64,000 bases of DNA from NCBI GenBank assembly GCA_902578815.1, contig CACHEI010000007.1, positions 1 through 64,000 on the forward strand. The letters are read 5' to 3'. The notes under the pieces were generated by a model. That model was not told the origin of the DNA and searched no databases. It worked only from the letters and a program-made list of their open reading frames with translations. The position numbers and the translations under genes were made by a program. Shown here piece after piece: positions 35,730 through 51,506 of the stretch; the stretch's first letter is position 1; the number at the start of each line of letters is the position of its first letter. This stretch comes from an uncultured SAR116 cluster alpha proteobacterium (GTDB lineage: Bacteria; Pseudomonadota; Alphaproteobacteria; Puniceispirillales; Puniceispirillaceae).

Positions 35730-36791
35730 TTATTCGGCGGGTGACGGCGAGCTCTTAGCCCTCTGCTGCTCTTCCTCGACCCACAGATTATGATGCTCCT
35801 TAGCCCAATTTAGGTCGACTTCGCCAGTATGCATGGCATCTATAGCACCTTCCATACCAACTGATCCGATATAAATATGAGCGATGATCATCGCAATAAG
35901 CACAAGAGAAACTAGTCCATGCCAAAGTTGGTTATATTGTTGCTCTTGCATCGGTGTAAAATCGGTCGGAAGGCCTAAACCCACAGTGTTTAGCAATGCG
36001 AAAGTATCAGAAAACATCGTCGTCTGAAATGGAAACATCAAAGCAATCCCTGACAAGCTGACAGAGAGACCGCCAATCATAGTTACCCAGAAAATGATTT
36101 TCTGGCCTGCATTAAACTTTTTTGCCGGTGGATGAACCCCTTTTTTAAAAATGCCACCGCCCATGCGCAGCCACTGCAAGTCAAGTTTGGTGGGGATATT
36201 ATGACGCACCCACAAAACGAAGGAAAGAGCCAGGCCAATCATAAACGCAAACGCTAAGTAGTTATGTGCGTATTTACCACCCGTAGTAAGTGCCGAAAAT
36301 GCCTCCGGACCTATCACTGGGAGTATAACATATCGTCCATAAAGTAAATTTAAACCGGTGAGACCAAGCACCACAAACGATCCAGCCATCAACCAATGTG
36401 CAAACCTATCTATTGAACCGAACCTTACTATCGTTTTATTGGAAGGTCCTTTTTCGATCCTGATTTTACCCCTGATCATATAGAACATTGTGAGGACAAA
36501 CAGCATCATGAAGATTAAAAATCCTCCGATTGTCGACAAAGGCCCATTCCGCAAAGACCTCCAATTGTCACCCTCGGACTGGATCATCACAGCCCCCAGT
36601 TCATTTTTCATCGACACCGACCCAGCATTTCCGGTACGCACAAAGCGCCATAAATCGGCATCAGACTTTAGGCCTAGAGCCTGGCCAGGGACTTCACCCT
36701 GTTGTTGTGCAACAGCGGTAGAATTCAAGGCAACAATACCAGAAAAAAGAGTTACGATGACGGCGACTACGGAGAGAATTCTGCTGTTCAT
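35730..36791 (-). CDS. fdoI: formate dehydrogenase gamma subunit (cytochrome b556)
   Basis: Membrane subunit that takes electrons from the Fe-S subunit and reduces quinone. The 353-residue protein has a cleavable-looking N-terminus (VVAVIVTLFSGIVALNSTAVA), a periplasmic stretch of about 60 residues, then five membrane helices. Candidate haem ligands are the histidines in DRFAHWLMAG, KYAHNYLAF, NQLWHGLVS and MIIAHIYIG. The C-terminal GAIDAMHTGEVDLNWAKEHH is a family signature. It carries a longer N-terminal domain than E. coli FdoI, as in the Rhodobacter/Pseudomonas-type enzymes. Confidence 0.92.
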   Translation of the reverse strand: MNSRILSVVAVIVTLFSGIVALNSTAVAQQQGEVPGQALGLKSDADLWRFVRTGNAGSVSMKNELGAVMIQSEGDNWRSLRNGPLSTIGGFLIFMMLFVLTMFYMIRGKIRIEKGPSNKTIVRFGSIDRFAHWLMAGSFVVLGLTGLNLLYGRYVILPVIGPEAFSALTTGGKYAHNYLAFAFMIGLALSFVLWVRHNIPTKLDLQWLRMGGGIFKKGVHPPAKKFNAGQKIIFWVTMIGGLSVSLSGIALMFPFQTTMFSDTFALLNTVGLGLPTDFTPMQEQQYNQLWHGLVSLVLIAMIIAHIYIGSVGMEGAIDAMHTGEVDLNWAKEHHNLWVEEEQQRAKSSPSPAE

Positions 36792-36815
36792 TTCAAAGCC
36801 TCCCTGGGAACCTAA

Positions 36816-37016
36816 TCAATAATTACTTTGGAAACGCGTTCTACTATTCAGTTCTCTAAGCTGTTCATTATTCAAAGACGAGTCCACCTTGCCTAAATAC
36901 GTCCCTTTTTCATAATTGAGGGGTCTTCCTTGCTCTTCTTCGCGGCAGGCAGACATGCCAGAAGCCAAAGAAATCACCAACAGCAGAAAAACTGATCTTG
37001 TCAAAATATGACGCAT
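36816..37016 (-). CDS. small lipoprotein of the formate dehydrogenase operon
   Basis: A 66-residue protein from ATG 37016, preceded by a GGGCGGG purine-rich site. The upstream in-frame extension has no support. The N-terminal hydrophobic segment VFLLLVISLASGMSAC ends in a cysteine that fits a lipobox, so the mature form is a short outer- or inner-membrane lipoprotein. The tail contains YEKGTYLGKVDSSLNNEQ. Genes of this size and pattern sit between the Fe-S and cytochrome b genes in related clusters. Function unknown. Confidence 0.7.
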   Translation of the reverse strand: MRHILTRSVFLLLVISLASGMSACREEEQGRPLNYEKGTYLGKVDSSLNNEQLRELNSRTRFQSNY

Positions 37017-37117
37017 AGAAACCCGCCCACAGTCTAGAGCCCCGCGTTGGGGACAGTTCTTAAACAAAACGTGCGAAACCCCGGTGTTTAAGAGAGGTTT
37101 CGCACAATGTATTTTTG

Positions 37118-37708
37118 TTAGCTCTTGATGGAGTAAGCGGTACCCCAGCCCCATGCGCCGGATCCAAAGCCTCTCGCCACGATGCGCTCGCGGAAGATGT
37201 TAGCAACTTGATCACCGTCACCCGCCAACAAAGCTTTGGTCGCACACATTTCCGCACATATGGGAAGCTTGCCTTCAGCAAGGCGGTTTCCACCATACTT
37301 TTGGTATTCTGCTGAAGACAGGTCCTCCTCCGGACCACCCGCGCAAAACGTACATTTGTCCATTTTCCCACGTGATCCGTAGTTTCCAGCCTGTGGAAAT
37401 TGAGGCGCTCCAAATGGGCATGCGTAGAAGCAATACCCACAACCAATACAAAGGTCTTTTGAGTGCAACACAACCCCTTGATCTGTCTGGTAGAAACAAT
37501 CTACCGGGCAAACAGCCATGCAAGGCGCATCAGAACAGTGCATGCAGGCGACGGAAATCGACCGCTCCCCAGGCTTACCATCCTGAATTGTCACCACACG
37601 ACGGCGATTAACACCCCAAGGAACCTCATGTTCATTCTTACAAGCGGTAACGCAAGCATTACATTCGATACAACGCTCTGCATCACAAAGGAACTTCATT
37701 CGTGCCAT
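37118..37708 (-). CDS. fdhB: formate dehydrogenase beta (Fe-S) subunit
   Basis: Electron-transfer subunit with four 4Fe-4S clusters. The 196-residue product shows CIECNACVTACKNE, CMHCSDAPCMAVCPV, CIGCGYCFYACPFG and the split fourth set CTFC...CAEMCATKAL. There is no C-terminal membrane anchor, unlike E. coli FdnH, so it must dock directly on the cytochrome b subunit. It is 11 bases downstream of fdhA. The roughly 100-base gap after it to the lipoprotein gene shows no obvious terminator. Confidence 0.95.
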   Translation of the reverse strand: MARMKFLCDAERCIECNACVTACKNEHEVPWGVNRRRVVTIQDGKPGERSISVACMHCSDAPCMAVCPVDCFYQTDQGVVLHSKDLCIGCGYCFYACPFGAPQFPQAGNYGSRGKMDKCTFCAGGPEEDLSSAEYQKYGGNRLAEGKLPICAEMCATKALLAGDGDQVANIFRERIVARGFGSGAWGWGTAYSIKS

Positions 37709-37719
37709 TATTACCTCCT

Positions 37720-40611
37720 TTAAGCCCGCTCAATTTCACACAGAGAACATTTTGTTTCCTGCATCAATGTCACGGAGTCATAGCCGTATGTAAAAGCTGT
37801 ATTAGCTGCTTCTCCAAGCACGTAAGGATCTGCCCCCTCTGGATACTTGGACCGAAGGTCCTCACCCTCCATGTGACCACCAAAATGGAATGGAAGGAAG
37901 GCGACACCTTTTGCAACACGCTCAGTGACCATAGCCATCACCTTAATGCGAGCGCCTTCAGGGGTCATTACCCACACCATGTCACCATCACGAATTTGCT
38001 TTGTGTTGGCATCAAACGGATTCATTTCAACAAACATATCTTGCTGAAGTTCAGCAAGCCATGGGTTGGAACGGGTTTCATCACCACCGCCTTCGTATTC
38101 AACAAGCCGTCCTGAGGTGAGGATCATGGGAAACTTTTCAGTATGATCAACATCTTGAATTGACTTATAGAGTGTTGGCAAACGGTAAAGCTTACGATCT
38201 GAATAGGTCGGATAATCAGCAACCAAATCACGGCGCGAGGTGTAAAGAGGCTCGCGATGCAATGGGATTGGGTCAGGGAATGTCCAGACCTTCACCCGTG
38301 CTTTAGCGTTACCAAATGGTGCACACCCATGCTTGATCGCAACGCGCTGGATACCGCCTGAGAGGTCAACCTTCCAGTTAGTTTTATCACCAGCTACAGC
38401 ATCGATTGCGGACCGCTCTTCTGAAGTCAAGTCACCGTCCCAGCCTAGCTTTTTGAGCATGCCCATGGTGAATTCCGGATACCCGTCCTTGATTTCTGAA
38501 CCGACAGGGTATGAACCCTCTGCCAAAAGGTTTTTGCCCTCATGCTCGACACCAAAACGGGCACGGAAGCACAGACCACCCTCTGCTACAGGCTTCGAAG
38601 TATCATAAAGATTTGGCGTGCCTGGGTGGCCCATTTCTGCTGTTCCCCAACAGGGCCAAGGCAGACCGTAATATTCTCCGTCGAGTTCGCCCCCTACTGC
38701 TTGCAGTGTAGTCTTGTCAAACATGAACTGGTTTGCCATGTGGGCCTTAATACGCTCCGGAGACTGCCCTGTATATCCGATGGTCCACATACCACTGTTG
38801 AATTCACGAGTTACGTCTTCAACGTAAGGCTCATCATTATCAACCTTTATTTGGCGGAACATTCGGTCTGCAAAACCAAACTTCTTTGCAAACTTATATA
38901 TGATGGTGTGATCAGGCAGAGAGTCGAACGAAGGCTCGATAACCTTTTCACGCCATTGCAAAGAACGGTTCGATGCAGTGACTGACCCATAGGTCTCAAA
39001 CTGCGTTGTTGCGGGCAGCAGATAAACACCATCGGTACGGTCAGACAGCACAGCGGAAACCGTCGGATATGGATCGATCACGACCATCAGATCGAGTTTT
39101 TCCATCGCCGTCTTCATTTCCTTCATACGCGTCTGAGAGTTCGGGGCATGCCCCCAAAACACCATCGCCCGCAGATTGTCCGGCTGATCCATATTGTTCT
39201 TGTCCTCAAGAACACCATCGATCCAGCGCGAAACGGGGATGCCTTTCAGGTTCATCAGGCTCTTTTTCTTGCCATCAGACCCCTTGATCGAGTCAAACCG
39301 GCCTTTCAGCCAGTCGATATCCTCACCCCATACTCGGGCCCAGTGCTTCCAAGCACCTGCCGAAAGGCCATAGTAACCGGGCAGTGAATGCGAGAGCACA
39401 CAGAAGTCGGTAGCACCCTGCACATTACAGTGGCCGCGGAATATGTTTGCGCCACCACCGGAAACGCCCATGTTACCAAGCGCGAGCTGAAGCGCACAGT
39501 ACGCACGGGTGTTATTGTTACCATTTGTATGCTGAGTTCCACCCATACACCAAATGAAAGTACCAGGGCGGTTGTTTGCCATAATTTTGGCTACACGCTT
39601 CAATTGTGATCCAGGAACGCCAGTGACGCGTTCTGTCTCTTCCGGGGTCCATTTCTTGACCTCGGCCATCACGTCTTCCATCCCATAAACGCGCTGGCGG
39701 ATAAACTCTTTATCTTCCCACCCATTTTCAAATATGTGCCACATAATACCCCAAATCAGACCCACATCTGAGCCAGGGCGGAAACGCACGTACTCGTCTG
39801 CGTGAGCTGCTGTACGAGTGAAGCGCGGGTCACAGACGATAATTGGTGCATTATTCTGCTCCTTGGCCTTCAATACATGCATAAGCGAAACAGGGTGCGC
39901 TTCTGCCGGGTTGCCACCGATTATAAAAACAGCTTTTGAGTTGTGAATATCGTTGTAGGAGTTAGTCATCGCCCCATAGCCCCAAGTGTTTGCAACACCC
40001 GCAACTGTGGTTGAGTGACAAATACGGGCCTGATGGTCACCGTTGTTGGTACCCCAATAAGCGTAAAACTTGCGGAAAAGATAAGCCTGCTCATTGCTGA
40101 ATTTTGCTGAACCGAGCCAATACACAGAGTCGGGGCCTGATTTTTCACGAATGTCGATCATCTGATCGCCGATCTCGCTTATCGCATCATCCCAACTCAT
40201 GCGGGTCCACTTACCCCCAACAAGCTTCATTGGGTATTTCAAACGGCGCTCTCCACTGGCGGTTTCACGAACTGAAGCGCCTTTTGCACAATGTGCTCCA
40301 AGGTTGATTGGGCTGTCCCAACCGGGCTCCTGACCGGTCCAGACACCATTTTGCACCTCTGCCACGACGGTACATCCAACCGAACAATGTGTACAAACCG
40401 ACTTTCTTATCTGAGCTGCAGCAGAACTGCCAGCAGCAAGTGCCGGTTTAACGCTCGGGCCAACAAGTGTAGCTGCGGCAGCCAATCCACCAACCGCTAT
40501 ACCCGAGCCGCGCAAAAACGTGCGTCTATCAACGACTGTCTCGACAGCCTGTCCGAGAAAAGATGATGACTGGGGGCCTCTCGCAACCCCGGACGTCTTC
40601 TTTCTAAGCAT
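37720..40611 (-). CDS. fdhA: formate dehydrogenase catalytic subunit (Mo/W-bisMGD)
   Basis: Oxidises formate to CO2 at a bis-MGD molybdenum or tungsten site. The 963-residue protein carries a twin-arginine signal (DRRTFLRGSG, Arg29-Arg30) and so is exported folded. The N-terminal 4Fe-4S site is CTHCSVGC...GAHCAKGAS (about 73-111). The metal ligand is Cys198, followed by His199, in RICHSTTVAG; the codon is TGT, so this is the cysteine and not the selenocysteine form. The C-terminal molydopterin dinucleotide-binding domain begins near FPMILTSGRLVEYEGGG. It is preceded by a small Tat protein and a TorD-like chaperone. Tungsten is suggested by the nearby TupA gene but not proven. Confidence 0.96.
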   Translation of the reverse strand: MLRKKTSGVARGPQSSSFLGQAVETVVDRRTFLRGSGIAVGGLAAAATLVGPSVKPALAAGSSAAAQIRKSVCTHCSVGCTVVAEVQNGVWTGQEPGWDSPINLGAHCAKGASVRETASGERRLKYPMKLVGGKWTRMSWDDAISEIGDQMIDIREKSGPDSVYWLGSAKFSNEQAYLFRKFYAYWGTNNGDHQARICHSTTVAGVANTWGYGAMTNSYNDIHNSKAVFIIGGNPAEAHPVSLMHVLKAKEQNNAPIIVCDPRFTRTAAHADEYVRFRPGSDVGLIWGIMWHIFENGWEDKEFIRQRVYGMEDVMAEVKKWTPEETERVTGVPGSQLKRVAKIMANNRPGTFIWCMGGTQHTNGNNNTRAYCALQLALGNMGVSGGGANIFRGHCNVQGATDFCVLSHSLPGYYGLSAGAWKHWARVWGEDIDWLKGRFDSIKGSDGKKKSLMNLKGIPVSRWIDGVLEDKNNMDQPDNLRAMVFWGHAPNSQTRMKEMKTAMEKLDLMVVIDPYPTVSAVLSDRTDGVYLLPATTQFETYGSVTASNRSLQWREKVIEPSFDSLPDHTIIYKFAKKFGFADRMFRQIKVDNDEPYVEDVTREFNSGMWTIGYTGQSPERIKAHMANQFMFDKTTLQAVGGELDGEYYGLPWPCWGTAEMGHPGTPNLYDTSKPVAEGGLCFRARFGVEHEGKNLLAEGSYPVGSEIKDGYPEFTMGMLKKLGWDGDLTSEERSAIDAVAGDKTNWKVDLSGGIQRVAIKHGCAPFGNAKARVKVWTFPDPIPLHREPLYTSRRDLVADYPTYSDRKLYRLPTLYKSIQDVDHTEKFPMILTSGRLVEYEGGGDETRSNPWLAELQQDMFVEMNPFDANTKQIRDGDMVWVMTPEGARIKVMAMVTERVAKGVAFLPFHFGGHMEGEDLRSKYPEGADPYVLGEAANTAFTYGYDSVTLMQETKCSLCEIERA

Positions 40612-40659
40612 TTGTTTCCTCCAACAAATAGGTGTTTACAAAACTATCATTCGCTTCAA

Positions 40660-40857
40660 CTAGAACCGCGCAAGATCGTAAAATGTCTTGACGTGGTTGG
40701 TCAGCCGGTAGCCTGCGCCTTTCGGTGCCTCGACCGTCTCAGCGGCAGCCGCCTTTCCGACAAGCATCGCTCCACCTGCGGCCGCTACACCAGTTGCAGA
40801 CAGCTTCAAGAAGTCACGACGGCCGGATTGTGTTACCTCATCCTTGTCAATCTTCAT
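40660..40857 (-). CDS. formate dehydrogenase-region small Tat protein
   Basis: A 65-residue protein from ATG 40857 with a strong AGGAGGT ribosome site; the longer in-frame start lacks one. It is almost entirely a twin-arginine signal: SGRRDFLKLSATGVAAAGGAM, then a short tail with YRLTNHVKTFYDLARF. This matches the small Tat-target family found just upstream of fdhA in many proteobacteria (TIGR02811). The role is unknown; it may assist export or assembly of the catalytic subunit. Confidence 0.88.
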   Translation of the reverse strand: MKIDKDEVTQSGRRDFLKLSATGVAAAGGAMLVGKAAAAETVEAPKGAGYRLTNHVKTFYDLARF

Positions 40858-40903
40858 TCTTACCTCCTTATTTATCTCAACATTGAGACCATTTGTCCGG
40901 CCG

Positions 40904-41524
40904 TTAGTCACGATCGGTCAAATCCATTTCAAAAGCCTTGCTTTCAACTTCTAAAAACACACGCCCCAATGTGCCAACTGGGGCGAAAAAGATGGCGGTC
41001 TTCGCCCCTTCTACATCGCGCATTAAAAGTTGACCCCATGGTTCAATATGCTTTGAGTAAAATGTCTGCTGTTCAGCAACGCTGAATGCACGGCCATAAT
41101 CACCCCTAATCAAACCAGCCATCATATCAAAAAGACTCGCAATGTGATCTTCCGGTTCACGAACGCCGTCAGCGCGCTTGATGCCAATCGCGTTCATGTC
41201 TCCTCGCAAATTAGCTAGAGGTCTATCATTCAAAAAACCGGTTAAATAATATGACGCGAAAGGCAACACCTCACCTCTCCCAACGCCAATGAATAATTCA
41301 ACGTATTCATTTCGTATCATACTATAATCGATTGAGGCAGCTAGTTTTGCCATTGTGGCGCATGCGTTTCCTATGGGAGTATCATCACCCTCTAGCGATG
41401 CAACTCGATCAAGAAGGTCGTCTGTTGGCTCGGACCGCAACAAAGACGCGAGGAAACCGTACATATCGGCTCTTAATCTATCCTCTTCTGCGATAGACAT
41501 GTTTTCAGCAATTTCCGCAGACAC
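40904..41524 (-). CDS. TorD/DmsD-family molecular chaperone
   Basis: A 206-residue all-helical protein of the TorD family, which binds the Tat signal or apo-form of molybdo/tungsto-enzymes until the cofactor is inserted. Seen: RADMYGFLASLLRSEPTDDL at the N-terminus, YVELFIGVGRGEVLPFASYYL in the centre (the family's PYxS-like element) and EPEDHIASLFDMMAGL with the conserved EP-DH. It is two genes upstream of fdhA with a 46-base gap to the small Tat protein gene, so the enzyme served is very likely this formate dehydrogenase. Confidence 0.88.
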   Translation of the reverse strand: MSAEIAENMSIAEEDRLRADMYGFLASLLRSEPTDDLLDRVASLEGDDTPIGNACATMAKLAASIDYSMIRNEYVELFIGVGRGEVLPFASYYLTGFLNDRPLANLRGDMNAIGIKRADGVREPEDHIASLFDMMAGLIRGDYGRAFSVAEQQTFYSKHIEPWGQLLMRDVEGAKTAIFFAPVGTLGRVFLEVESKAFEMDLTDRD

Positions 41525-41636
41525 GTAATCAAAGACCCCCTACTCACAATAAAGGTGTAACACAGTGTTTAAGGACTTCCAATGAATTAATGTTATAAAG
41601 TGTTAATTATGCCAGCATGAAAGCAATAATATTGCG

Positions 41637-41655
41637 AATGATAACAGTTATCATT
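41637..41655. promoter_or_regulatory. palindrome upstream of the torD-fdh genes
   Basis: AATGATAAC and GTTATCATT flank a single A: a perfect nine-base inverted repeat in an AT-rich 170-base gap between the DUF3306 stop and the TorD-like gene. It is about 110 bases upstream of that gene's start and is a good candidate operator for the fdh operon. It shares the GTTAT/ATAAC element with the palindrome next to the ModE-like gene, but the two are not identical. No regulator can be assigned from the sequence. Confidence 0.45.
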
Positions 41656-41697
41656 ATTATACGCGGGTCAAAGCACCCTGATCTTTAGTTGTTTCGA

Positions 41698-42570
41698 TCA
41701 GCTTTTTGGAATTTTGAAGACCATTTTTTTTGGTCTAACATTCTGATTTTCGGCCCCTTCTAAAACTGTACTAATTTGATCCTCTTTTTGCCTACCGTCG
41801 TTAGCTTTTTGGGAATTTAGACTCTCAACATTTTTCTCTTCGTTTTCATGTTGCGACAATTTGCGCGCTGAGAGATCGAAAGCTTCCTGTTTCTGCGGCT
41901 TGGAGGCATTTTTTCTGTCAACTTTTTTTTCTATATTTCCCCCATCATTATTCGCATTAGGACCGGATTTTGAAGCTCCTCCTAGATCAACTTCTTTTTC
42001 ACCATGGTTCTCAAGACCATCCGTTTTGACCTTTTTATTTTGGGGATCAAGAGTCTTACTTGAACCCGTTTCTGTATTTCCCAAGCTAGGTCTTGTTTCC
42101 CCGTCGATGATATTATCATCGACACCTTCCCCCTCTAGCGCTTCTTTGACCTTTGCCAAATACCCCTTGCCTACCTCATAGGCGGTTTGCATGCCTTCAA
42201 CTACGGTCGCTGCGTCTGTGTAATCCTCCCCATATTCAACCATCTCATCAGCAAAGCGAAATAGCGGATTTAATCGCCAGACGCGACGCAAAGCCAAACG
42301 CTTGAGCCTTTCTGGCATATCTCCCTCGAAAAACTGGTCCAACGCCGCTTCATCCTCAACCGTTTCCGGGTCAGGCAGCTCATATCTTTTTAAAAGCTCA
42401 CTGTCGCTGAGCGCGTCTTCCTCATCTGCAATATCCGTGTCGTCAAGATCTTTGGAAACAAGATGCTCTTCATCGGTCTGATCACTGCGGGCCTCTGCCG
42501 CGACCTTCTCCCGTCGCCTGTTAAACCGGTCTATCAAAGACTCAGATTCTGGATTTGTCGGCTTTGCCAT
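41698..42570 (-). CDS. DUF3306 protein of the formate dehydrogenase cluster
   Basis: The first 150 residues match DUF3306: FLDRFNRRREKV-like start (SLIDRFNRRREKVAAEAR), LLKRYELPDPETVEDEAALD, and FFEGDMPERLKRLALRRVWR with LNPLFRFADEMVEYGEDYTD. The rest, to residue 290, is low-complexity, rich in Lys, Asp, Asn and Ser, and is more AT-rich than its neighbours. This family is linked to formate dehydrogenase genes in many proteobacteria and has no proven function. It precedes torD-fdhA and follows a DUF3305 gene by 43 bases. Confidence 0.85.
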   Translation of the reverse strand: MAKPTNPESESLIDRFNRRREKVAAEARSDQTDEEHLVSKDLDDTDIADEEDALSDSELLKRYELPDPETVEDEAALDQFFEGDMPERLKRLALRRVWRLNPLFRFADEMVEYGEDYTDAATVVEGMQTAYEVGKGYLAKVKEALEGEGVDDNIIDGETRPSLGNTETGSSKTLDPQNKKVKTDGLENHGEKEVDLGGASKSGPNANNDGGNIEKKVDRKNASKPQKQEAFDLSARKLSQHENEEKNVESLNSQKANDGRQKEDQISTVLEGAENQNVRPKKMVFKIPKS

Positions 42571-42613
42571 ATGTTCCGTATTCCTCTGTTAAGCCGTGGT
42601 GCAATCTATTTGT

Positions 42614-43249
42614 TTATTGGTAATCGCGGCGACGAGGTGGCGTTTGAAAGACATCACCGCTCTGTCTACGCCGAACATCACCGCGCCCCGCATCTCGCAA
42701 CGACACATGCGCCTTGTCTCGCCGGCGTTTTTTGAAAGGCTCAGGCTGAAAATGTTTTGCAACGAACGCTTCAACAAATTCAGCAATCGGACCCTGCAAC
42801 TGGAGCTTTTCGACCTGATCCTCGCCACAATCCTCGTAATCCTGTATGTGATAGGGAGACAAGCTAATTTCGGCTACGTGTACATCAGCGGCGTCTTTGT
42901 CAGCTTCAACATCCGCGTAGTCATCACTGTTATCGTTCTTGCGCAGCACCAGATAAATCGCGGGATCAGACGATGCCAAATTTTCAGCATAGGCTTCAGA
43001 CTCGGCATGATGCAAATCTAGCAATGCGTCAGCAGTAAACAACATCGAAAGCCCATCATCCCCAGCGCGTAGGGGTATCAGCGGGATATCGTTGATTGGT
43101 GGCGTGCCATTTCCCGCCACACGGTCTAACGGCATCAGGTCATGAATTACCCACCTGTGGGACTGCCAGACATTGTCGATCTTCTGGCGCTCCACAATTA
43201 CGCGCACGCAGTACAACACGTGTTTTTCATCAGCCGAAACACTATTCAC
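42614..43249 (-). CDS. DUF3305 protein of the formate dehydrogenase cluster
   Basis: A 211-residue soluble protein. VRVIVERQKIDNVWQSHRWVI at the N-terminus and the NDIPLIPLRAGDDGLSMLF and YLVLRKND stretches fit DUF3305. PYHIQDYEDCGEDQVEKLQL and a helix ending FVEAFVAKHFQPEPFKKRRR come later, then a basic tail with many Arg. It is the first gene of the minus-strand fdh run and is divergent from the ferredoxin gene. Unknown function; the constant pairing with DUF3306 and Tat formate dehydrogenases suggests an assembly role. Confidence 0.85.
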   Translation of the reverse strand: MNSVSADEKHVLYCVRVIVERQKIDNVWQSHRWVIHDLMPLDRVAGNGTPPINDIPLIPLRAGDDGLSMLFTADALLDLHHAESEAYAENLASSDPAIYLVLRKNDNSDDYADVEADKDAADVHVAEISLSPYHIQDYEDCGEDQVEKLQLQGPIAEFVEAFVAKHFQPEPFKKRRRDKAHVSLRDAGRGDVRRRQSGDVFQTPPRRRDYQ

Positions 43250-43485: not shown

Positions 43486-45516
43486 ATGAGAGTAAATGAC
43501 ACTGACGTGCTGGTGTGTGACTGCGGCGACACCATGACCATTGACGCTAAGGCGTTAGCAAAGGGTTGCGGCGCAACCGGCGAGTGCAGCCCATCAACAA
43601 GCCTGTGCCGCACACAGACGGAAAGGCTGGCCTCTGCAATGCAGGCGGCGGCGGCTGCAGGTAGAAACGTTCTTGTCACTTGTACGCAAGAACTGGGTAA
43701 ATTCACCCAGATCGCCGAGGAAATCGCAACGCCGGTGCCACAAACTGTCAATATCAGAGAGATGGCCGGCTGGTCTGATCAGGGGGTTCAAAGCACTCCC
43801 AAAATGGCAGCCCTGATTGCTGATGCCCTAGCTGTTAAGCCATCGGCCCGCAGCATGGGGTTGGAGTCGCATGGTCGGTGCCTGATTTACACCGATGGCG
43901 GTTCCCATTCATCTAATTCAGACGCAGCCTTTGCGCTGGCAGCAAAGCTTGAGGGTAGCCTTGGTGTCACGGTACTAATCAAAAACCCTGCTGATACAAT
44001 TATGGCGCAGAGCGCACCGGCTAGCGTAACAATCGGCACAATCCGCTCAGCCATCGGTCATTTCACAAATTTCAAACTTGTCATAGACCAGTTTGCAGAA
44101 GCGCTACCTCATGGACGCGACAGCCTTATTTTTGGCGGGCGCAGTGATGGTGTTGAAACAAGCTGTGACATATTAATCGATTTAAGTGGTGGCAAACCGC
44201 TTTTCACTGGCTGGGAAAAGCGCGACGGCTATTTTCGTGTGGCAGCAGATGACAGCATTGAACTCACCGCCCTTGAGGCAAAGGTCATGCCAATGATCGG
44301 TGAGTTTGAAAAACCTATCTATGTTAATTTTGATGAAAATCTTTGCGCCCATTCCAGAAACCAAATTGACGGCTGTTCGCGTTGCCTCGACGTCTGCCCT
44401 GCTGGCGCGATTACCAGCGCTGGAGACACAGTATCCATTGATCCGGCAATCTGTGGTGGCTGTGGTTTTTGCGGTGCCGTATGTCCATCTGGTGCTGCGC
44501 AAACGGTCTATCCACCTATTGATGCGCTTCTGGGCAATGTTGACAGGCTCGTTGACACCTATATAGAGGCTGGTGGAAAGGCCCCCGCCCTACTTTTGCA
44601 CGACGAGAGTTTTGGCGTTGAAGCAATTGAAATGATGGCTCGGTATGGCCGTGGCCTGCCCGCGCACGTGCTGCCGCTGGCCCTGCATGACATTGGTCGC
44701 GCAGGACATGATTTAATGGTTGGCGCAATTGGTCTTGGCTGTAATCAGGTCTTTATTCTGGCCAATCCGCGCAAGACAGACGAAGCGCATCCCGTCGGCG
44801 CGCAGATCGCACTCGCCCGGGACCTACTAGCTGGCGTAAATGCCGATGCAGATGGCCGACTTGTTCTAATCAATGAGAGCGATCCTGATGCCATCGCCAA
44901 TATTCTTTATGGTACCAAATGTGCCAGCAAAGCGAAACCAGCGCCCTTTGGCCCAGTAGGGACACCGCGTGGCATGGTGCGACTGGCGATGCGCGGGCTT
45001 GGCTCCAATAACAACGCCAACGAGGATGTAATAGCCCTCTCGCAGGGTGCACCGTATGGGCGTGTCAGTATCGACACAGAAAACTGTACGATCTGTCTTT
45101 CCTGCGTTAGTGCCTGTCCGGCTGGGGCGCTACAAGACAATCCGGATGCGCTACAACTGCTCTTCCGCGAGGATGCCTGTATACAATGCGGGATCTGTGC
45201 AAAGACCTGTCCAGAAAATGTGATCAGCCTTGTTCCACAATTCAATCTGTCCGATACCGCCATGGCAGCCGAAATGGTTATTGAGGATACGCCTTTTCAT
45301 TGTGAGGGTTGCGGCAAGGCCTTTGGTTCCACCCGCTCAATTGAACGGGTGATCGCAAAACTCTCAGACCACAGCATGTTCCAGCAGAAAGGTGGCACCG
45401 ATATGCTCAAACTTTGCGAGAATTGCCGAGTCGAGGTCATGTTCACACATGATGATAAAATGCTTGATGTCGGCGAACGGCCAAAACCACGCACCACCGA
45501 CGATTACCTCAACTGA
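43486..45516 (+). CDS. multi-cluster 4Fe-4S ferredoxin-like protein
   Basis: A 676-residue soluble protein with no signal peptide. Four ferredoxin motifs are seen: CSRCLDVCPAGAI and CGGCGFCGAVCPSGAA in the middle, CTICLSCVSACPAGAL and CIQCGICAKTCPENVI near the C-terminus. Further Cys groups occur at the N-terminus (VCDCGD, CGATGEC, SLCRTQ) and at the C-terminal end (CEGCGKAFG and LCENCR, zinc-ribbon-like). The intervening domain has a nucleotide- or substrate-like fold I cannot name. It is divergent from DUF3305, so it belongs to the cluster by position. A cytoplasmic electron donor for assembly or cofactor reduction is possible, which is inference. Confidence 0.82.
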   Translation: MRVNDTDVLVCDCGDTMTIDAKALAKGCGATGECSPSTSLCRTQTERLASAMQAAAAAGRNVLVTCTQELGKFTQIAEEIATPVPQTVNIREMAGWSDQGVQSTPKMAALIADALAVKPSARSMGLESHGRCLIYTDGGSHSSNSDAAFALAAKLEGSLGVTVLIKNPADTIMAQSAPASVTIGTIRSAIGHFTNFKLVIDQFAEALPHGRDSLIFGGRSDGVETSCDILIDLSGGKPLFTGWEKRDGYFRVAADDSIELTALEAKVMPMIGEFEKPIYVNFDENLCAHSRNQIDGCSRCLDVCPAGAITSAGDTVSIDPAICGGCGFCGAVCPSGAAQTVYPPIDALLGNVDRLVDTYIEAGGKAPALLLHDESFGVEAIEMMARYGRGLPAHVLPLALHDIGRAGHDLMVGAIGLGCNQVFILANPRKTDEAHPVGAQIALARDLLAGVNADADGRLVLINESDPDAIANILYGTKCASKAKPAPFGPVGTPRGMVRLAMRGLGSNNNANEDVIALSQGAPYGRVSIDTENCTICLSCVSACPAGALQDNPDALQLLFREDACIQCGICAKTCPENVISLVPQFNLSDTAMAAEMVIEDTPFHCEGCGKAFGSTRSIERVIAKLSDHSMFQQKGGTDMLKLCENCRVEVMFTHDDKMLDVGERPKPRTTDDYLN

Positions 45517-45534: not shown

Positions 45535-46524
45535 TTACTGGCTGACAATTGGCAAATTCACAAGGAGGTTCTGCGGTTTCATGCGGGAAACCCCGGCACG
45601 GTCCATCGCCAGCGCCATATAAACCGGATGGCCCTGCATCTCCGGAACAAAGCCACTCTCGACGGTGAGCTTGAACAGGCATAGGATTTGCGCCAGCCGG
45701 TCCTCGCCAACTTCCCTGTATTCATAGAGATCATTCAAAATACCGGTGGCATCCGCATCGAGACCGACGTGCCATTTCCAGTTTTCCTCCTCGATCTTGA
45801 CCACCGGAATGATCGTCACGGTTTGGCCAAGGAAATGCTGAACCCACTTTTCCATCACGCGGCACAGTCCATCCAGCGCTGGTTGGGTGAACGCGATGTC
45901 GACCGATGTATTAAACATGTCTGAACGGGACCAATATTCATCGGCATTTTCTGAGGACAGAATGTCAATCATCACCTCATCCGGACGCTCACTCTGTTTG
46001 AGCGCCTTCTGATAGCCAGCATGAAGCTGCACTGTCGCATGGTCAGCAACCATGATCCGTCCATCATCCAATGTCACCGCCTGATGCCGGAACAACAACT
46101 CCGCTGCGCGGATCTGCATCGGATCGGACACACCGTCCAGAATGCCACGCAGCATGACCTGGACAAGCTGTTCGGTGAACAATGGTGGAATGCCGCTGGG
46201 TGCTTCACCCCGGATCAGCGCCAAGTAGGCAGATTCTATGGTGTCATATTTTGCCAGAAAATCGCGAAACCGCAGAACCGCCTTATAATTGTGAACAACG
46301 TCGCAGTCCTTGATGGCTGCCAGTTCGACCTCATCAACCGCACCAAACGGGTCCTCAACAAGACGTGCATGTAGCGCCCGCTCGGCATCACAGGATTCCT
46401 CAACCGGCGCAACTTCATCACGGAAAAAATATGCCGCCATGAAATCCACCGACGGCATCGCTCTACCCTCAGACGTCCTGTCAGTCAGATGCCACCCCGA
46501 GGTGATCCAAAAATCTTTTGCCAT
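45535..46524 (-). CDS. DUF6352 family protein
   Basis: A 329-residue soluble protein that I recognise as DUF6352: MAKDFWITSGWHLTDR at the start, FMAAYFFRDEVAPVEESCDAE, and ILSSENADEYWSRSDMFNTS. The centre has an AELLFRHQAV-type helix, and the end reads RMKPQNLLVNLPIV. Nothing catalytic stands out. It closes the minus-strand run DUF6494-mrp-ligase fold-DUF6505-DUF6352 and is convergent with the ferredoxin gene after 18 bases. Role unknown; likely part of enzyme maturation by association. Confidence 0.78.
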   Translation of the reverse strand: MAKDFWITSGWHLTDRTSEGRAMPSVDFMAAYFFRDEVAPVEESCDAERALHARLVEDPFGAVDEVELAAIKDCDVVHNYKAVLRFRDFLAKYDTIESAYLALIRGEAPSGIPPLFTEQLVQVMLRGILDGVSDPMQIRAAELLFRHQAVTLDDGRIMVADHATVQLHAGYQKALKQSERPDEVMIDILSSENADEYWSRSDMFNTSVDIAFTQPALDGLCRVMEKWVQHFLGQTVTIIPVVKIEEENWKWHVGLDADATGILNDLYEYREVGEDRLAQILCLFKLTVESGFVPEMQGHPVYMALAMDRAGVSRMKPQNLLVNLPIVSQ

Positions 46525-46557: not shown

Positions 46558-47064
46558 TTATTGGCCTCCACCTTCGTTTCCGCTATCATCATCTGCAACC
46601 ATCGTCCAGATTTTCTGCTCGGCGCACGACTCCGGTTTTGGTAGGCTGCGGAATTGTTCGGTGATGCCATTCTCACCAGCCTCGCGCTGAATGCAGAGCA
46701 ACGTGCCAATCTTGTGCGACTCGCATAGGTCAGCCATGAAGCTGATTTCCTGCTCTGCCGCGGCCAATGCGTCCTGTCGAGAGGGTGCACCAAATACCTG
46801 TTCAAACCAATCAGCAAGACTCGCCTCAAGTGCCTCCACATCCCGCGGCTTCGCCGTTGCCACGCTAACCAGGGTCGAAAACCCATGGCTCTCACACCCC
46901 ACAAACCCATTGGCAAATGCCTGATTCCACTTGCCGGTGATTTGGTCAGCCTGCATTGAGGAGAAAACAAAACTACCCGGAAGCGCCCATTCGCCCTCCT
47001 CGGCAACATGCGGAAAGACATTCAGGTCGGACGCGTCGAAGCGGATTGTCCGGGCCAGTTTCAT
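46558..47064 (-). CDS. DUF6505 family protein
   Basis: A 168-residue protein, start MKLARTIRFDASDLNVF, with GEWALPGSFVFS, QAFANGFVGCESHGFSTLV and FMADLCESHKIGTLLCIQRE. These features agree with DUF6505. Its start overlaps the stop of the ligase-fold gene by four bases (ATGA), so the two are translationally coupled. No membrane segment or signal is present. Unknown function. Confidence 0.78.
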   Translation of the reverse strand: MKLARTIRFDASDLNVFPHVAEEGEWALPGSFVFSSMQADQITGKWNQAFANGFVGCESHGFSTLVSVATAKPRDVEALEASLADWFEQVFGAPSRQDALAAAEQEISFMADLCESHKIGTLLCIQREAGENGITEQFRSLPKPESCAEQKIWTMVADDDSGNEGGGQ

Positions 47065-47840
47065 AGTGGCCTCATCGGGCCCGTCATGTCTGCAAAGCGG
47101 TGGGCTGGTATGCTGATGACCTGACCATCAATTTTCAGTAGCGCCTGACCATCTTCATCTAGTCCTAGCCAATCGGCGACTGAACCAGCCCCGAGCTCGA
47201 CAACCGCATTGGTCAGCGCCCGGTTCTGCCAGGCGTCAAAAAGAGGACGAAAACCATCCTGTTCCCAGCGATTGATCCAAGCCAGAAAATGCCGACTAGA
47301 TGCCTCGATGATGCGGGTGGTAGAAATGTGAGTGCCGCTCTCCTCGATCAGCGAGGTTTCATCATGCACTCCAGAGGCCAGCGTTGCCTCTATGTCGGTA
47401 TCCATCCGGATGGCGGCACTTGCAACCATCCATCTCGGTTCATCACCGAGCTCTGCAGCCGGGTCAGAGGCAATCTGAACATGCCCCGCCCTTCCCTTGT
47501 TGAGCAAAATGTAACCGGGGAAGAGATAATTAACTTCAACCTCGGGTGGAGCGATGGCCCCGATTGCGTCACCGACACCGATTATCAGCGCGTGGAACAT
47601 CTGCGCCGCCTTCAATGAGGTCACGTCCGGTGCCAACGCAACCGACAGCTGGGCGAGCCCGCCAGCCGCCGCATAGAAAACGGTGCCAACCTCACTCTGG
47701 TTGGCAGCCGATACAGCAAGGGCATGGACATCGCCATGGTGCGCCAGCGCATCTGCATCCACCTCACAGGGTGTCAACAGAGGAGGCAATCGTGGCTCAC
47801 CCTCATAATCATCCGGGTCGGGTGTATAATAAATGCTCAT
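47061..47840 (-). CDS. biotin/lipoate-protein ligase-fold protein, probably catalytically degenerate
   Basis: A 259-residue protein with the BPL/LplA/LipB fold: LAVSAANQSEVGTVFYAAAG and LKAAQMFHALIIGVGDAIGA. The C-terminal small domain includes WLGLDEDGQALLKIDGQV. The biotin-ligase motif KWPND should sit where residues 103-109 read VNYLFPG, and the GRGR loop is absent, so normal ligase chemistry is unlikely. Starts and stops overlap by four bases on both sides (mrp before, DUF6505 after). That tight coupling suggests it acts with Mrp and DUF6505, perhaps as a binding module. Confidence 0.78.
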   Translation of the reverse strand: MSIYYTPDPDDYEGEPRLPPLLTPCEVDADALAHHGDVHALAVSAANQSEVGTVFYAAAGGLAQLSVALAPDVTSLKAAQMFHALIIGVGDAIGAIAPPEVEVNYLFPGYILLNKGRAGHVQIASDPAAELGDEPRWMVASAAIRMDTDIEATLASGVHDETSLIEESGTHISTTRIIEASSRHFLAWINRWEQDGFRPLFDAWQNRALTNAVVELGAGSVADWLGLDEDGQALLKIDGQVISIPAHRFADMTGPMRPL

Positions 47841-48913
47841 CGCCCCGCCTCGAGCCGGAGCCCTGCAACATCGATCAGACGGCGAGCAATGGTGCGAAAA
47901 ATTTTTGCCTGCACTGAACGTGGTTCAGTAACCACAACGGGTGATCCTCCATCACCTCCAACACGAATTGAGAGGGACAACGGCACCTCACCAAGCATCT
48001 CAACACCGCGCCTTCGGGCTTCAGTAGCAACACCACCCTCACCAAAAATGTGATCCTCACGCCCACAGTCAGGGCATTTCCATATTGCCATATTCTGGAT
48101 CATCCCAAGGATTGGCACCTCTGCTTTTTCAAACATAGTCAATGCCTTGACTACATCAAGAAGTGCAATATCCTGAGGCGTCGACACAATCACTGCACCC
48201 GACAAATTGACCTGCTGCGCAAGCGAAATCTGTATATCGCCGGTACCAGGGGGCAAATCGACAATGATTACATCAAGCTCGCCCCAAGCAACATTGTCCA
48301 GCATTTGCGTCAGCGCCGACTGCACCATTGGTCCACGCCAGATCATCGCGGTGTTATCAGGCACAAGCAACCCCATCGACATTAGCTTTACACCGTAATT
48401 TTCAAGCGGCACGACCATGTCGCCACCGGCGCTTGCTGGTCGGCCGCTCACACCAAGCATCCGCGGCTGCGAGGGACCGTAAACATCGGCATCCAGAATG
48501 CCGACACGCAGCCCCTCAAGTTTCAGCGCCACGGCTAAATTTGCGGCTGTCGTGGATTTGCCAACACCGCCCTTGCCCGACGCCACGGCAATGAAGCGGC
48601 GCACCCTACTCTCGATCACTTTTTCAACGGTAGTGTCGGGCGGTGTCTCAGCAGTGGCCGCGCTGCTATGGGCTGTAACCATTACTGTGGTACTGGTCAC
48701 ACCCGGAATCGCCCGCACAGCAGCTTCAGCGGCACGGCGCACCGGCTCCATTGCCGGACCACGATGCGGTGGAACCTGTAGGGCAAAGCTGACATTGCTC
48801 TTTTTGACATGCAGGCCAGTCACCATGTCGAGCGTGACAAGATCCTTGCCCTGCGAGGGGTCCTCGACCTTACGCAGCGCCGTCAGAACCTGGTGTTCGG
48901 TGATATCCGCCAT
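47837..48913 (-). CDS. apbC: Mrp/NBP35-type iron-sulfur cluster carrier ATPase
   Basis: P-loop ATPase that carries and delivers Fe-S clusters. From ATG 48913 the product is 358 aa; a TTG four codons earlier is less likely. The N-terminal DUF59/MIP18-like domain (VLTALRKVEDPSQGKDLV) is followed by the deviant Walker A SGKGGVGKST, DADVYGPSQPRML, DLPPGTGD and the CxxC cluster site CPDCGRED. It is in the middle of a tight operon (9 bases after DUF6494). That places a dedicated Fe-S carrier beside an Fe-S-rich formate dehydrogenase. Confidence 0.93.
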   Translation of the reverse strand: MADITEHQVLTALRKVEDPSQGKDLVTLDMVTGLHVKKSNVSFALQVPPHRGPAMEPVRRAAEAAVRAIPGVTSTTVMVTAHSSAATAETPPDTTVEKVIESRVRRFIAVASGKGGVGKSTTAANLAVALKLEGLRVGILDADVYGPSQPRMLGVSGRPASAGGDMVVPLENYGVKLMSMGLLVPDNTAMIWRGPMVQSALTQMLDNVAWGELDVIIVDLPPGTGDIQISLAQQVNLSGAVIVSTPQDIALLDVVKALTMFEKAEVPILGMIQNMAIWKCPDCGREDHIFGEGGVATEARRRGVEMLGEVPLSLSIRVGGDGGSPVVVTEPRSVQAKIFRTIARRLIDVAGLRLEAGR

Positions 48914-48921
48914 CACCAGGA

Positions 48922-49173
48922 TCAATTCTCGCCGTCAGGTGCGATCACTTGGGCCGAAACGCTGTGCGACAACCCCAACTCGGCAATCCTTAACTCAGCT
49001 GTGATGTCAATGCTGCCACCTGGGGCAAGTTTGCCGTCAGCAACGGCCTTGGCCACAGCTGCCTCGAGTTCCTGATGTGCGGTCACGCCAAGCTGTTTCA
49101 GAAATTTGCGCATACTTATCTCTGAAGCGGTCATCTCTCCTTGGTTTCTGCGACCATTGGATTTATCACTCAT
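48922..49173 (-). CDS. DUF6494 family protein
   Basis: An 83-residue protein. The core ISMRKFLKQLGVTAHQELE, then VADGKLAPGGSIDITAELRI, agrees with DUF6494. The N-terminal 15 residues are polar and probably flexible; a start at the later MTASEISM is possible. It is the first gene of the coupled run DUF6494-mrp-ligase fold-DUF6505-DUF6352. Function unknown. Confidence 0.8.
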   Translation of the reverse strand: MSDKSNGRRNQGEMTASEISMRKFLKQLGVTAHQELEAAVAKAVADGKLAPGGSIDITAELRIAELGLSHSVSAQVIAPDGEN

Positions 49174-49251: not shown

Positions 49252-49674
49252 CTAATTTTTGACAGTATCTACATAGGCAAGTATGCGGTCCAAGTCATCA
49301 ACACTCAACTTTATTTCCTGCACAAAAGCGGGACGAGATTTGTCACGTTCCTCACTGATCCCAACAACAGTTACGAGGGCTGGGTGCGGTGGTAGTGTGA
49401 AAAACACTTCAAACCGGCGACGCCAATCCGCGAGATGCTTCATTCCCTTGAATGACGGAGTGGACTCAATACCGCCCTTGGGATTGATTTCGGGGACAAC
49501 ATGACAACGGGTGCAATGCTCAGCCACGATCGCTCGGCCCTCGGCGATCAAGTCAGCGCCAGCTGTCTGCGGTAAATAGAACAGAAGCAAGGCAACAGCA
49601 CCATGCCAGAATGGTGATTGTTGGCATTGCCTAAACTTCGTGCTCAACCGTGTAATCCAATCTCGTTTTGGCAT
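49252..49674 (-). CDS. small mono-haem c-type cytochrome
   Basis: A 140-residue exported protein: a hydrophobic segment (FWHGAVALLLFYLPQTAGA) ends near residue 40, and a single haem site CTRCH follows in the mature part. VPEINPKGGIESTPSFKGM may supply the distal ligand. The C-terminal helix (LSVDDLDRILAYVDTV) matches class I cytochromes c. It is near the formate dehydrogenase genes and could take electrons to or from the WD40-cytochrome c, which is inference. A 51-base gap separates it from the DUF3144-like gene. Confidence 0.82.
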   Translation of the reverse strand: MPKRDWITRLSTKFRQCQQSPFWHGAVALLLFYLPQTAGADLIAEGRAIVAEHCTRCHVVPEINPKGGIESTPSFKGMKHLADWRRRFEVFFTLPPHPALVTVVGISEERDKSRPAFVQEIKLSVDDLDRILAYVDTVKN

Positions 49675-49725: not shown

Positions 49726-50049
49726 CTAGACGGTCGGATCTGCCATGTGAGTGCGCAGCATGTCCTGATACTGTTTGGTCATGTGATCAATGAATTTTTC
49801 CTGTTCATCTACAGCCAGTACATTTTTGCCGACATGTGCAGCGTATCTGGCGGCAGCAAACATCATCACCAGTTGCAGATCTGTGGCTGCCACTTTTTTA
49901 CTGCGTTGATTGGCCAACGAAATGAATTGGTCAGCTAGCCGGACAAACGAATCACCATCAAGGCAGCCACTGTTTGCCCCTGCCTGTTCGCGCGTTTCCG
50001 GTCGATCATGCCAATTTGGAAACGCGGATTTTTCGTCTAAAGCCGTCAT
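49726..50049 (-). CDS. DUF3144-like small protein
   Basis: From ATG 50049 (107 aa), chosen because it overlaps the stop of the ModE-like gene by one base (TGATG); the longer in-frame start adds eight residues. The central FVRLADQFISLANQRSKKV, VMMFAAARYAAHVGKN and the final MTKQYQDMLRTHM resemble DUF3144. It is helical and soluble. The coupling to the regulator suggests both are made together. Function unknown. Confidence 0.6.
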   Translation of the reverse strand: MTALDEKSAFPNWHDRPETREQAGANSGCLDGDSFVRLADQFISLANQRSKKVAATDLQLVMMFAAARYAAHVGKNVLAVDEQEKFIDHMTKQYQDMLRTHMADPTV

Positions 50050-50531
50050 CACTCTTCCCCTTGCCCTGTCCATACTCGAACTAAGTTACCATTTCTGGAC
50101 AATTTCCGCTGTGTCTCTGGCCCCTCCACATCATCAAGGCTAGCTTTGCCGATATTGGCCGTTGCCTGAACAGTCTGCAACCATTCTGACAGGCCAGCAA
50201 ACCCTGACTGAATTTTTGCTTCATGGCTATTAAATCGTCGCACGAGTTCTTTACCGAGCTCAGTGATTGCCGCCCCACCATGTTTGCTTCCACCTCGCAC
50301 CGTCTCAATGAGCGCTGCATCAAACCCCTGCTGCAACGAGGTAATTAGGAACCAGGCGCGCCGATAACCCATACCTAACTCGCGGGCGGCAGCGCTAATA
50401 GACCCAAGCTCGTCAATCTTTTCCAAAAGGCGTATTTTGCCGATGCCGATGGTTTCGTCGGCAACAAACCATTTAACGCGGATACCGGGTGTCCGCGGTC
50501 TCCTGGCATTCGCTTCGTTCATAATCGACAT
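50049..50531 (-). CDS. ModE-like winged-helix regulator lacking the metal-binding domain
   Basis: A 160-residue protein with the ModE N-terminal winged helix-turn-helix: IGIGKIRLLEKIDELGSISA, AARELGMGYRRAWFLITSLQ and GGSKHGGAAITELGKELV. In ModE this is followed by two molbindin (TOBE) domains that sense molybdate; here only a short tail remains, so direct oxyanion sensing is not evident. A palindrome starts ten bases upstream of its ATG and lies between it and the divergent tupA, which suggests it controls both genes. It may act as a tungstate- or molybdate-linked regulator of the FDH cluster (inference). Confidence 0.82.
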   Translation of the reverse strand: MSIMNEANARRPRTPGIRVKWFVADETIGIGKIRLLEKIDELGSISAAARELGMGYRRAWFLITSLQQGFDAALIETVRGGSKHGGAAITELGKELVRRFNSHEAKIQSGFAGLSEWLQTVQATANIGKASLDDVEGPETQRKLSRNGNLVRVWTGQGEE

Positions 50532-50540
50532 CCATTCTAC

Positions 50541-50564
50541 CGTTATGTCATTTTTGACATAACG
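50541..50564. promoter_or_regulatory. perfect palindrome between the ModE-like gene and tupA
   Basis: CGTTATGTCA and its reverse complement TGACATAACG flank a four-base T spacer. The outer CGTTAT...ATAACG layout resembles the ModE operator (CGTTATATA-type half sites). It lies ten bases from the regulator start and about 105 bases before tupA, so it could regulate both directions. The ModE-like protein is the natural candidate to bind it. Confidence 0.6.
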
Positions 50565-50669
50565 ACTTTACAATTTCACCAAAAAGAACAACAAGAGAGT
50601 GGATCAACGTTCTCACGCAGGCAAGGGTACCTTGCGGCAATATTCGCTTTTTTTCGGAGTTTGGAAAGA

Positions 50670-51506
50670 ATGTGTAACAGTGTTTTAGGTTGTGTGCTCT
50701 CAGTATTCATTATAGGGACAGGGTTTTGCGTCAGTTCCGTCAATGCTGCAACAGTCAACGCTGAGTCGATTATCGTGCAATCGACAACATCGACACAGAA
50801 CGCGGGTTTCTATGAACATATAGTCCCGCTTTTTGAGCAAGCGAGCGGCATCAAGGTAAAAGTTGTTGCTGTTGGCACAGGTCAAGCACTGCAAAATGCC
50901 CGCAATTGCGATGGTGACCTACTAATCGTCCATTCAACAAAGCACGAATTGGCCTTCGTCGCCGCTGGTTTTGGCCTCGCTCGTCATAATCTAATGTATA
51001 ATGATTTCATCCTTCTCGGCCCGAAATCCGACCCTGCGGGCATCAGAGGCGGTTCTGACATCGGCGTAGCTCTATCCATAATCGCATCTAAGAATGCAAA
51101 ATTTGCGTCACGCGGCGACAATAGCGGAACGAACGAGGCAGAGCGACTGCTTTGGGCACTAACCGACACCAAGCCAGACAGCAGTATCAATGGCTGGTAT
51201 CTCGAAACTGGACGCGGTATGGGCGCGACACTGAATTTTGCGGTTCAGTCTGACAGCTACACGTTAAGTGATCGGGCTACATGGCTGGCTTTTGGCAACA
51301 AGATGACGCACGAAATACTTCTTGAGGGAGACCCACGCCTATTCAATCAGTATGGCGTCGTAACGATCAATCCGGCGCGGTGTCCAGAAGTTAAATCAGC
51401 TGCTGCCGCCAAATTTGTCGATTGGCTGTTGTCCGCTGAAGGCCAGACTAGCATCGGCACCCTAACGCGTGACAGCCAACTACTGTTTTTTCCCAACGCC
51501 AATTAA
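50670..51506 (+). CDS. tupA: tungstate-binding periplasmic protein TupA
   Basis: Substrate-binding component of the TupABC tungstate transporter. The 278-residue product has a signal peptide (VLSVFIIGTGFCVSSVNA). The family motifs follow: STTSTQNAGFYEHIVPLF, VGTGQALQNARNCDGD, LMYNDFILLGPKSDPAGI, SRGDNSGT and GWYLETGRGMGATL. ATG 50670 was chosen over a TTG nine bases earlier. Genes for the permease and ATPase (tupB, tupC) do not follow; glnB does. It is divergent from the ModE-like regulator across the palindrome. Confidence 0.92.
   Translation: MCNSVLGCVLSVFIIGTGFCVSSVNAATVNAESIIVQSTTSTQNAGFYEHIVPLFEQASGIKVKVVAVGTGQALQNARNCDGDLLIVHSTKHELAFVAAGFGLARHNLMYNDFILLGPKSDPAGIRGGSDIGVALSIIASKNAKFASRGDNSGTNEAERLLWALTDTKPDSSINGWYLETGRGMGATLNFAVQSDSYTLSDRATWLAFGNKMTHEILLEGDPRLFNQYGVVTINPARCPEVKSAAAAKFVDWLLSAEGQTSIGTLTRDSQLLFFPNAN

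Follow-up and report, generated by a model that had tools for sequence, protein, structure and literature searches.

Agrobacterium has a one-domain ModE regulator, ModE(S), whose activity Hoffmann et al. 2016 are said to have found dependent on the synthesis or supply of the molybdenum cofactor, and the modA gene of Agrobacterium has two boxes. A published consensus for E. coli ModE is ATCGNTATATA-N6-TATATANCGAT, which holds the core CGNTAT-N12-ATANCG, and the same source describes a single-domain ModE of Desulfovibrio that consists of the DNA-binding domain alone and occurs in genomes with oxyanion uptake genes (PMC545781). Cj1507c of C. jejuni, a ModE-like protein without a metal-binding domain, represses molybdenum and tungsten transport according to a second-hand account (PMC7011364). 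In Methylorubrum, moeA1-mobB-tupBCA form one cluster that is linked to a tungsten formate dehydrogenase (PMC13197769). A literature search returned no publication joining SAR116, formate dehydrogenase and tungsten.

We analysed a 64,000-nucleotide stretch of SAR116 DNA (the window; G000:C7:1-64000) from a draft genome that is 70% complete (2.07 Mb, 82 contigs). At 50541-50564 the window holds the palindrome CGTTATGTCATTTTTGACATAACG, in which perfect ten-base arms (CGTTATGTCA at 50541-50550 and TGACATAACG at 50555-50564) flank a TTTT spacer, between a ModE-type gene (50049-50531, minus strand) and a tupA-type gene (ATG at 50670 to 51506, plus strand). Arms, spacer and coordinates all bear out the initial annotation, made from the sequence alone, which had described a perfect palindrome with a T4 spacer between a divergent regulator and tupA. 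Chance readily produces palindromes of this size: when the window was dinucleotide-shuffled 60 times, pairs of perfect ten-base arms with a spacer of up to 4 bases arose 0.48 times on average, 40% of the shuffles held at least one, and the window itself holds two. Leaving its sequence aside, the bare palindrome is unremarkable, and palindromy alone proves little.

The sequence of the palindrome is more telling. Upstream of modA in E. coli K-12, 19 nt before the start, lies the site CGTTATATTGTCGCCTACATAACG, with the same hexamers, spacing and 24-bp span as the window's box; in both, CGNTAT half-sites face each other over 12 bases with no mismatch, as in an E. coli-type Mo-box. We used the core contained in the published E. 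coli consensus, CGNTAT-N12-ATANCG, as the test pattern, and a scan of the whole draft genome found the palindrome as its only exact match, while sites with up to one mismatch numbered 40 in all against 57 for a backwards control. The complete form CGTTATGTCA-N4-TGACATAACG likewise recurs nowhere else in the 2.07-Mb draft genome with 0-2 mismatches. Its sole three-mismatch place, 10194-10217, was dropped as a second operator, having three mismatches and lying inside a topA-like coding sequence. We annotate 50541-50564, without strand, as a ModE-type operator CGTTAT-N12-ATAACG on the basis of the E. coli modA hexamers and 24-bp span, the match in congeners and the uniqueness in the draft genome.

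The regulator gene was present in 20 of the 61 family genomes, the window's own included, and we tested the 230 bp upstream of all 21 loci (one genome, G003, has two) with 300 shuffles each. CGNTAT-N12-ATANCG was exact at five loci (G000, G010, G011, G022 and G024), which none of the 300 shuffles of any of these loci matched: besides the window's own, two congeners (G010 and G011) have the box at the same place, and two further species of the family have it before the same gene. Six loci had two mismatches, a level that 7-9% of shuffles reach, nine had three and one had four, and the box in these remaining 16 of 21 loci is not convincing. In the congeners the inner bases differ and the long palindrome is gone, with the hexamers nearly all kept, so the conserved unit is CGNTAT-N12-ATANCG and not the ten-base arms. 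Since the consensus stays exact in congeners though the ten-base palindrome is lost, it is the hexamers rather than a hairpin that are conserved, as fits a protein site. A chance palindrome, or an RNA hairpin or terminator, is thus a very improbable reading despite the frequency of such palindromes in shuffled sequence. We rejected a terminator or hairpin RNA at this place, as the palindrome is followed by no T-run, is absent from the terminator scan and has no Rfam match. The ModE-like character that the initial annotation gave the sequence holds as well, with E. coli modA hexamers and spacing that are conserved in part of the family.

Loss of the site and loss of regulator residues do not always go together within the family. 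In the aligned regulators of genus g2 (L043, L044 and L045) the YRRAW and GG..GGA stretches, which we take to be the recognition helix and wing of ModE, are missing, and their loci have no site; the aligned regulators of genus g5 keep both stretches, yet most g5 loci have degenerate sites. The ModE helix and wing residues are indeed kept in most regulators of the non-convincing loci. We observed that the g2 regulators (L043:9241-9726, L044:1361-1771 and L045:10105-10563) still lie beside tupA, and they may no longer bind DNA in the ModE fashion. Over the 37 family stretches (558,346 bases) there were eight exact sites against none for the control, three of the eight inside open frames away from the operator; these three, in L036 (4222 and 18938) and L041 (12516), were set aside as background. 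Separately, the regulator match at L042:9926-10243 (G029) comes in two pieces (loci L019 and L024) and resembles a frameshift or assembly error.

A link between short ModE proteins and this box was found across the class. A class-wide search of 385 alphaproteobacterial genomes gave a match in 100. Leaving out the family, 97 genomes with 98 places remained, and of these places we examined a non-random 36, the best 27 (L122-L148) and nine chosen from the next ranks (L160-L168). Genes of the mod transporter were in view at 21 of the 36 loci, with modA beside the regulator in seven, 11 more reached by extension, and L162, L165 and L168. In 20 of these 21 a box with at most one mismatch stood before a transporter gene, ten of them exact (L125, L128, L129, L134, L148, L150, L151, L156, L159 and L168) and ten with one mismatch (L138, L142, L149, L152, L153, L154, L155, L157, L162 and L165); at L158, the sole miss among the 21, no box was found before the transporter. 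At L149, L154, L156 and L162 the site stands before modB, modA having gone undetected there. The proxy used for modA starts gave five poor results among 17, and on re-reading the site lies between regulator and modA in L125, L129, L142 and L168. Where no mod genes were in view (15 loci), there was no exact site, and two loci (L161 and L163) held three one-mismatch sites between them, against two for the control. Over the first 27 loci (87,936 bases) the backwards pattern gave no exact and one one-mismatch site, and the true pattern five and three.

The regulators at these loci are short, with frames of 113-180 aa in 33 of the 36; in L126, L131 and L133 the open frame extends further upstream and carries the ModE domain at its end. 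Ten regulators scanned with NCBIfam, those three included, had the ModE DNA-binding domain and no match to the Mop model, and the TIGR00637 scores of all ten short proteins fell under the cut-off. We predict that the box marks the targets of one-domain ModE proteins across Alphaproteobacteria. Given the sequence of the operator, the family members that conserve it, the one-domain ModE next to it and the box at 20 of 21 mod transporter loci, the palindrome is very probably a ModE box through which both tupA and the eight-gene array of the regulator could be controlled.

The regulator itself (50049..50531, minus strand) is a protein of 160 aa in which Pfam finds only an HTH_1 domain (PF00126, E 5e-7), and it is annotated as a one-domain ModE on this match, on TIGR00637, and on its resemblance to E. 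coli ModE and 2IJL. It scores 74 bits against TIGR00637 ModE_repress (NCBIfam), below the cut-off of 98.5, and shares 34% identity with E. coli ModE over 85 aa of the DNA-binding domain. A profile search of solved structures placed 2IJL closest (135 aa, E 1e-30), followed by E. coli ModE (1O7L and 1B9M), and a fold search with the predicted model (mean pLDDT 76, residues 130-160 under 50) also returned 2IJL as the best match (E 8e-8). The 2IJL entry is titled a putative ModE from Agrobacterium tumefaciens, which we take to be ModE(S), the one-domain ModE of that species. The protein has the winged helix of the ModE DNA-binding domain at a TIGR00637 score of 74 against 98.5, with a YxxAW helix and a GG-rich wing that presumably fill the roles of the ModE winged-helix motifs. 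The C-terminal MOP/TOBE molybdate-binding domains of a full-length ModE are missing, PF00126 being the only domain in its 160 aa, and neither Pfam, NCBIfam nor the fold search found a MOP or TOBE domain. With a DNA-binding domain only, and an E. coli-type box before what are probably its targets, the adjacent promoters, it belongs with ModE(S). Translation may perhaps begin at the ATG at 50522-50520, in line with the start in the congeners, and a profile search found no second match to the ModE model in the window's genome.

This domain structure bears on what the regulator could sense. The initial annotation had proposed metal-responsive control of tupA and of the regulator, and control of both remains likely; the place of the box between regulator and tupA, together with membership of the ModE family, would fit a regulator that, like full-length ModE, binds tungstate or molybdate directly. 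The regulator has no MOP or TOBE domain for such binding, however, and the Mop model TIGR00638 matched none of six genomes (in a set of 14 control genomes that included E. coli, the same model matched five, E. coli being one), so the direct metal response is not supported and is quite unlikely. Nine TOBE matches occurred in five of the six genomes, each in an open frame of 327-410 aa, roughly as long as an ABC ATPase, and three of the nine, including both from the window's genome, were under the cut-off; G024, rated 100% complete and bearing the exact box, had none. The same findings can be read another way, in which the operator and regulator are as we describe them but the protein represses its own gene constitutively: without responding to metal or cofactor, it would simply keep tupA and its own array at a fixed low level of expression. 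The lack of any detected sensing domain, the Mop model at 0 of 6 genomes and the low confidence of residues 130-160 in the model are in keeping with this. Against it, the short Agrobacterium ModE is reported to respond to cofactor supply, and the C. jejuni ModE, also without a metal domain, is described second-hand as a repressor of molybdenum and tungsten transport. We regard constitutive autorepression as improbable, though less so than direct metal binding.

A tupA divergent from the regulator was seen in 18 of 20 relative loci and was absent in G025 and G027. The tupA-type periplasmic binding protein of the window (50670..51506, plus strand) opens with an ATG at 50670, has a further TTG at 50661, and is identified by PF12849 and by NF041772 TupA (E 2e-61), its best match, at 208 bits against a cut-off of 400. 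Its translation contains STTSTQ, resembling the TTTS motif described for TupA (PMC4139814). From family similarity below the curated cut-off, the protein may be tungstate-specific. The operator lies 105 nt from tupA and overlaps a promoter-like ATGTCA-N18-TACAAT for that gene (50545..50574, plus strand), a weak match in a consensus scan (9/12) whose TACAAT part the two congeners share unchanged. Towards the regulator, the operator is 9 nt from the first ATG and 18 nt from the ATG aligned with the congeners.

The regulator heads an array of eight same-strand genes, none more than 78 bp from the next, and the genes behind it are mostly the same in relatives where the contig reaches. All on the minus strand, they encode a DUF3144 protein (49726..50073; domain match), whose open frame overlaps the end of the regulator gene and which occurs in most relative loci, a small c-type cytochrome-like protein (49252..49674; PF00034, E 4e-4), a DUF6494 protein (48922..49173; domain match), an ApbC/Mrp-type Fe-S carrier P-loop NTPase (47837..48925; domain matches), a biotin/lipoate ligase family protein (47061..47840; PF16917), a DUF6505 protein (46558..47064; domain match) and, last in the array, a DUF6352 protein (45535..46524; domain match). 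Judging from position, the array would be one operon whose genes serve formate dehydrogenase. The formate dehydrogenase cluster (35730..43249) lies on the same strand, and its control by the operator is a candidate relation. It comprises the gamma subunit (35730-36791; NCBIfam, over cut-off), a 4Fe-4S beta-like protein (37118-37708; cysteine motifs and position), the alpha subunit (37720-40611), a TorD-like protein (40904-41524) and a DUF3305-type protein (42614-43249), the last three by NCBIfam matches under cut-off and all five on the minus strand. We also observed at 43486-45516 a 676-aa protein with several 4Fe-4S domains, encoded on the strand opposite the cluster and at the same place in many relatives.

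The tupA gene stands apart from its usual partners. The genes after it read from their translations as glnB and glnA, and tupB and tupC, which would make up a TupABC operon, are not in the tupA operon. In the window's genome a tupB homologue (E 4e-65) with an adjoining tupC homologue lies on contig C11 (L063:4420-5803) with no tupA there, and the only strong tupA match is the locus beside the regulator; a tupBC pair without tupA occurs likewise in G010-G013. Six genomes combine tupBC elsewhere with their only strong tupA at the regulator locus (G000, G010, G011, G022, G024 and G060), and in five of them, all except G060, the box is exact, while the other 14 regulator-bearing family genomes have no exact box. 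Of these 14, three that likewise have one tupA match each (G015, G020 and G023) yielded no tupB. This pattern was noticed after seeing the data and represents at most two independent events, since the five exact cases fall in two clades. At five loci of genus g5 (L029:10314-11705, L031:6603-8009, L036:6824-8284, L037:4239-5645 and L038:10901-12289) we observed a multicopper oxidase after tupA, in place of tupB or tupC. The Methylorubrum cluster may be taken to support a tungsten reading of the link between tup and fdh genes, short of proof at the window's locus.

Further targets were sought with looser patterns. CGWTATG-N10-CATAWCG with up to two mismatches gave 12 sites in the window's genome against 12 for the control, the palindrome alone having 0-1 mismatch. 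Sites exceeded control in G022 (22 against 11), G024 (35 against 21), G027 (20 against 9) and G001 (34 against 20), and also in G019 (25 against 18), G021 (25 against 15), G013 (16 against 13) and G060 (30 against 28), and fell below it in G010 (16 against 20), G011 (11 against 16), G012 (14 against 24) and G025 (18 against 25). The variable-gap pattern CGTTAT-N6-18-ATAACG gave two sites in the draft genome against four for the backwards control, thus no genome-wide excess, and the site other than the palindrome is at G000:C28:10853 with a 22-bp span. The initial annotation had offered, as a check on its reading, a scan of the whole genome for the same arms, above all before fdh and cofactor genes; this produced no second exact site, and the best operator match in the divergent promoter on the fdh side has four mismatches. 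Shared control of tupBC was also considered and rejected: in the window's genus nothing better than 3-4 mismatches, hence no site, occurs within 300 bp. A second target did not emerge, within the limits of a genome that lacks a third of its sequence and of loose scans with little power; further boxes may be missing from a draft that is 70% complete.

In G019 and G021 we observed a one-mismatch site about 79 bp before tupBCA (L067:6538-6561 and L071:6663-6686), identical in the two and counted once. The box at the regulator locus of these genomes is degenerate, and control may perhaps have moved to tupBCA; the tupBCA site is weak, since the pattern gives no more one-mismatch sites than the control does (15 against 18).

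Taken as a whole, we think it likely that the adjacent one-domain ModE uses the palindrome as its operator, where it would block both tupA and the array headed by the regulator in response to the state of the cofactor. A dimer of the regulator would bind CGTTAT-N12-ATAACG, sitting just upstream of the regulator start and over the candidate tupA promoter, and from this position could block both promoters. It would thereby repress tupA in one direction and, in the opposite one, the regulator together with the seven genes that accompany formate dehydrogenase, and our best guess is that it would be released when cofactor is short. The signal would most likely be the state of the molybdenum or tungsten cofactor, relayed by a partner, because the regulator lacks an oxyanion-binding domain; this is in line with what is reported for the short ModE of Agrobacterium. 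More tentatively, the one-domain ModE might act as the cofactor sensor of a whole tungsten formate-dehydrogenase module, setting both capture by a stand-alone TupA and the helper genes of the enzyme, a broader reading that we hold possible but doubtful. With a single operator and a target of tungsten rather than molybdenum type, the locus would be a compact case in the mostly uncultured marine SAR116, and it bears on the mechanistic question of how a ModE without a metal-binding domain learns of the metal supply.

Among known systems, Agrobacterium ModE(S) resembles the window's regulator in consisting of the DNA-binding domain only, with 2IJL closest by both profile and fold, and alphaproteobacterial mod promoters likewise hold the CGNTAT-N12-ATANCG box. 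The neighbours here differ, being tupA without tupBC and an array linked to formate dehydrogenase instead of modABC, and a single box is present where Agrobacterium modA has two. Compared with the E. coli ModE/modA operator, hexamers and spacing are identical and the DNA-binding domain is 34% identical over 85 residues, whereas the regulator lacks the C-terminal molybdate-binding domains of E. coli ModE and its proposed target is TupA-type and not ModA-type. The Desulfovibrio single-domain ModE is alike in having the ModE DNA-binding domain alone, but its predicted operator, CGGTCACG-N14-CGTGACCG, is unlike the window's box (PMC545781). Although it belongs to a distant organism and its targets are full transporter operons, C. 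jejuni Cj1507c is, by the second-hand account (PMC7011364), likewise a ModE without a metal-binding domain that acts on a tungsten transporter.
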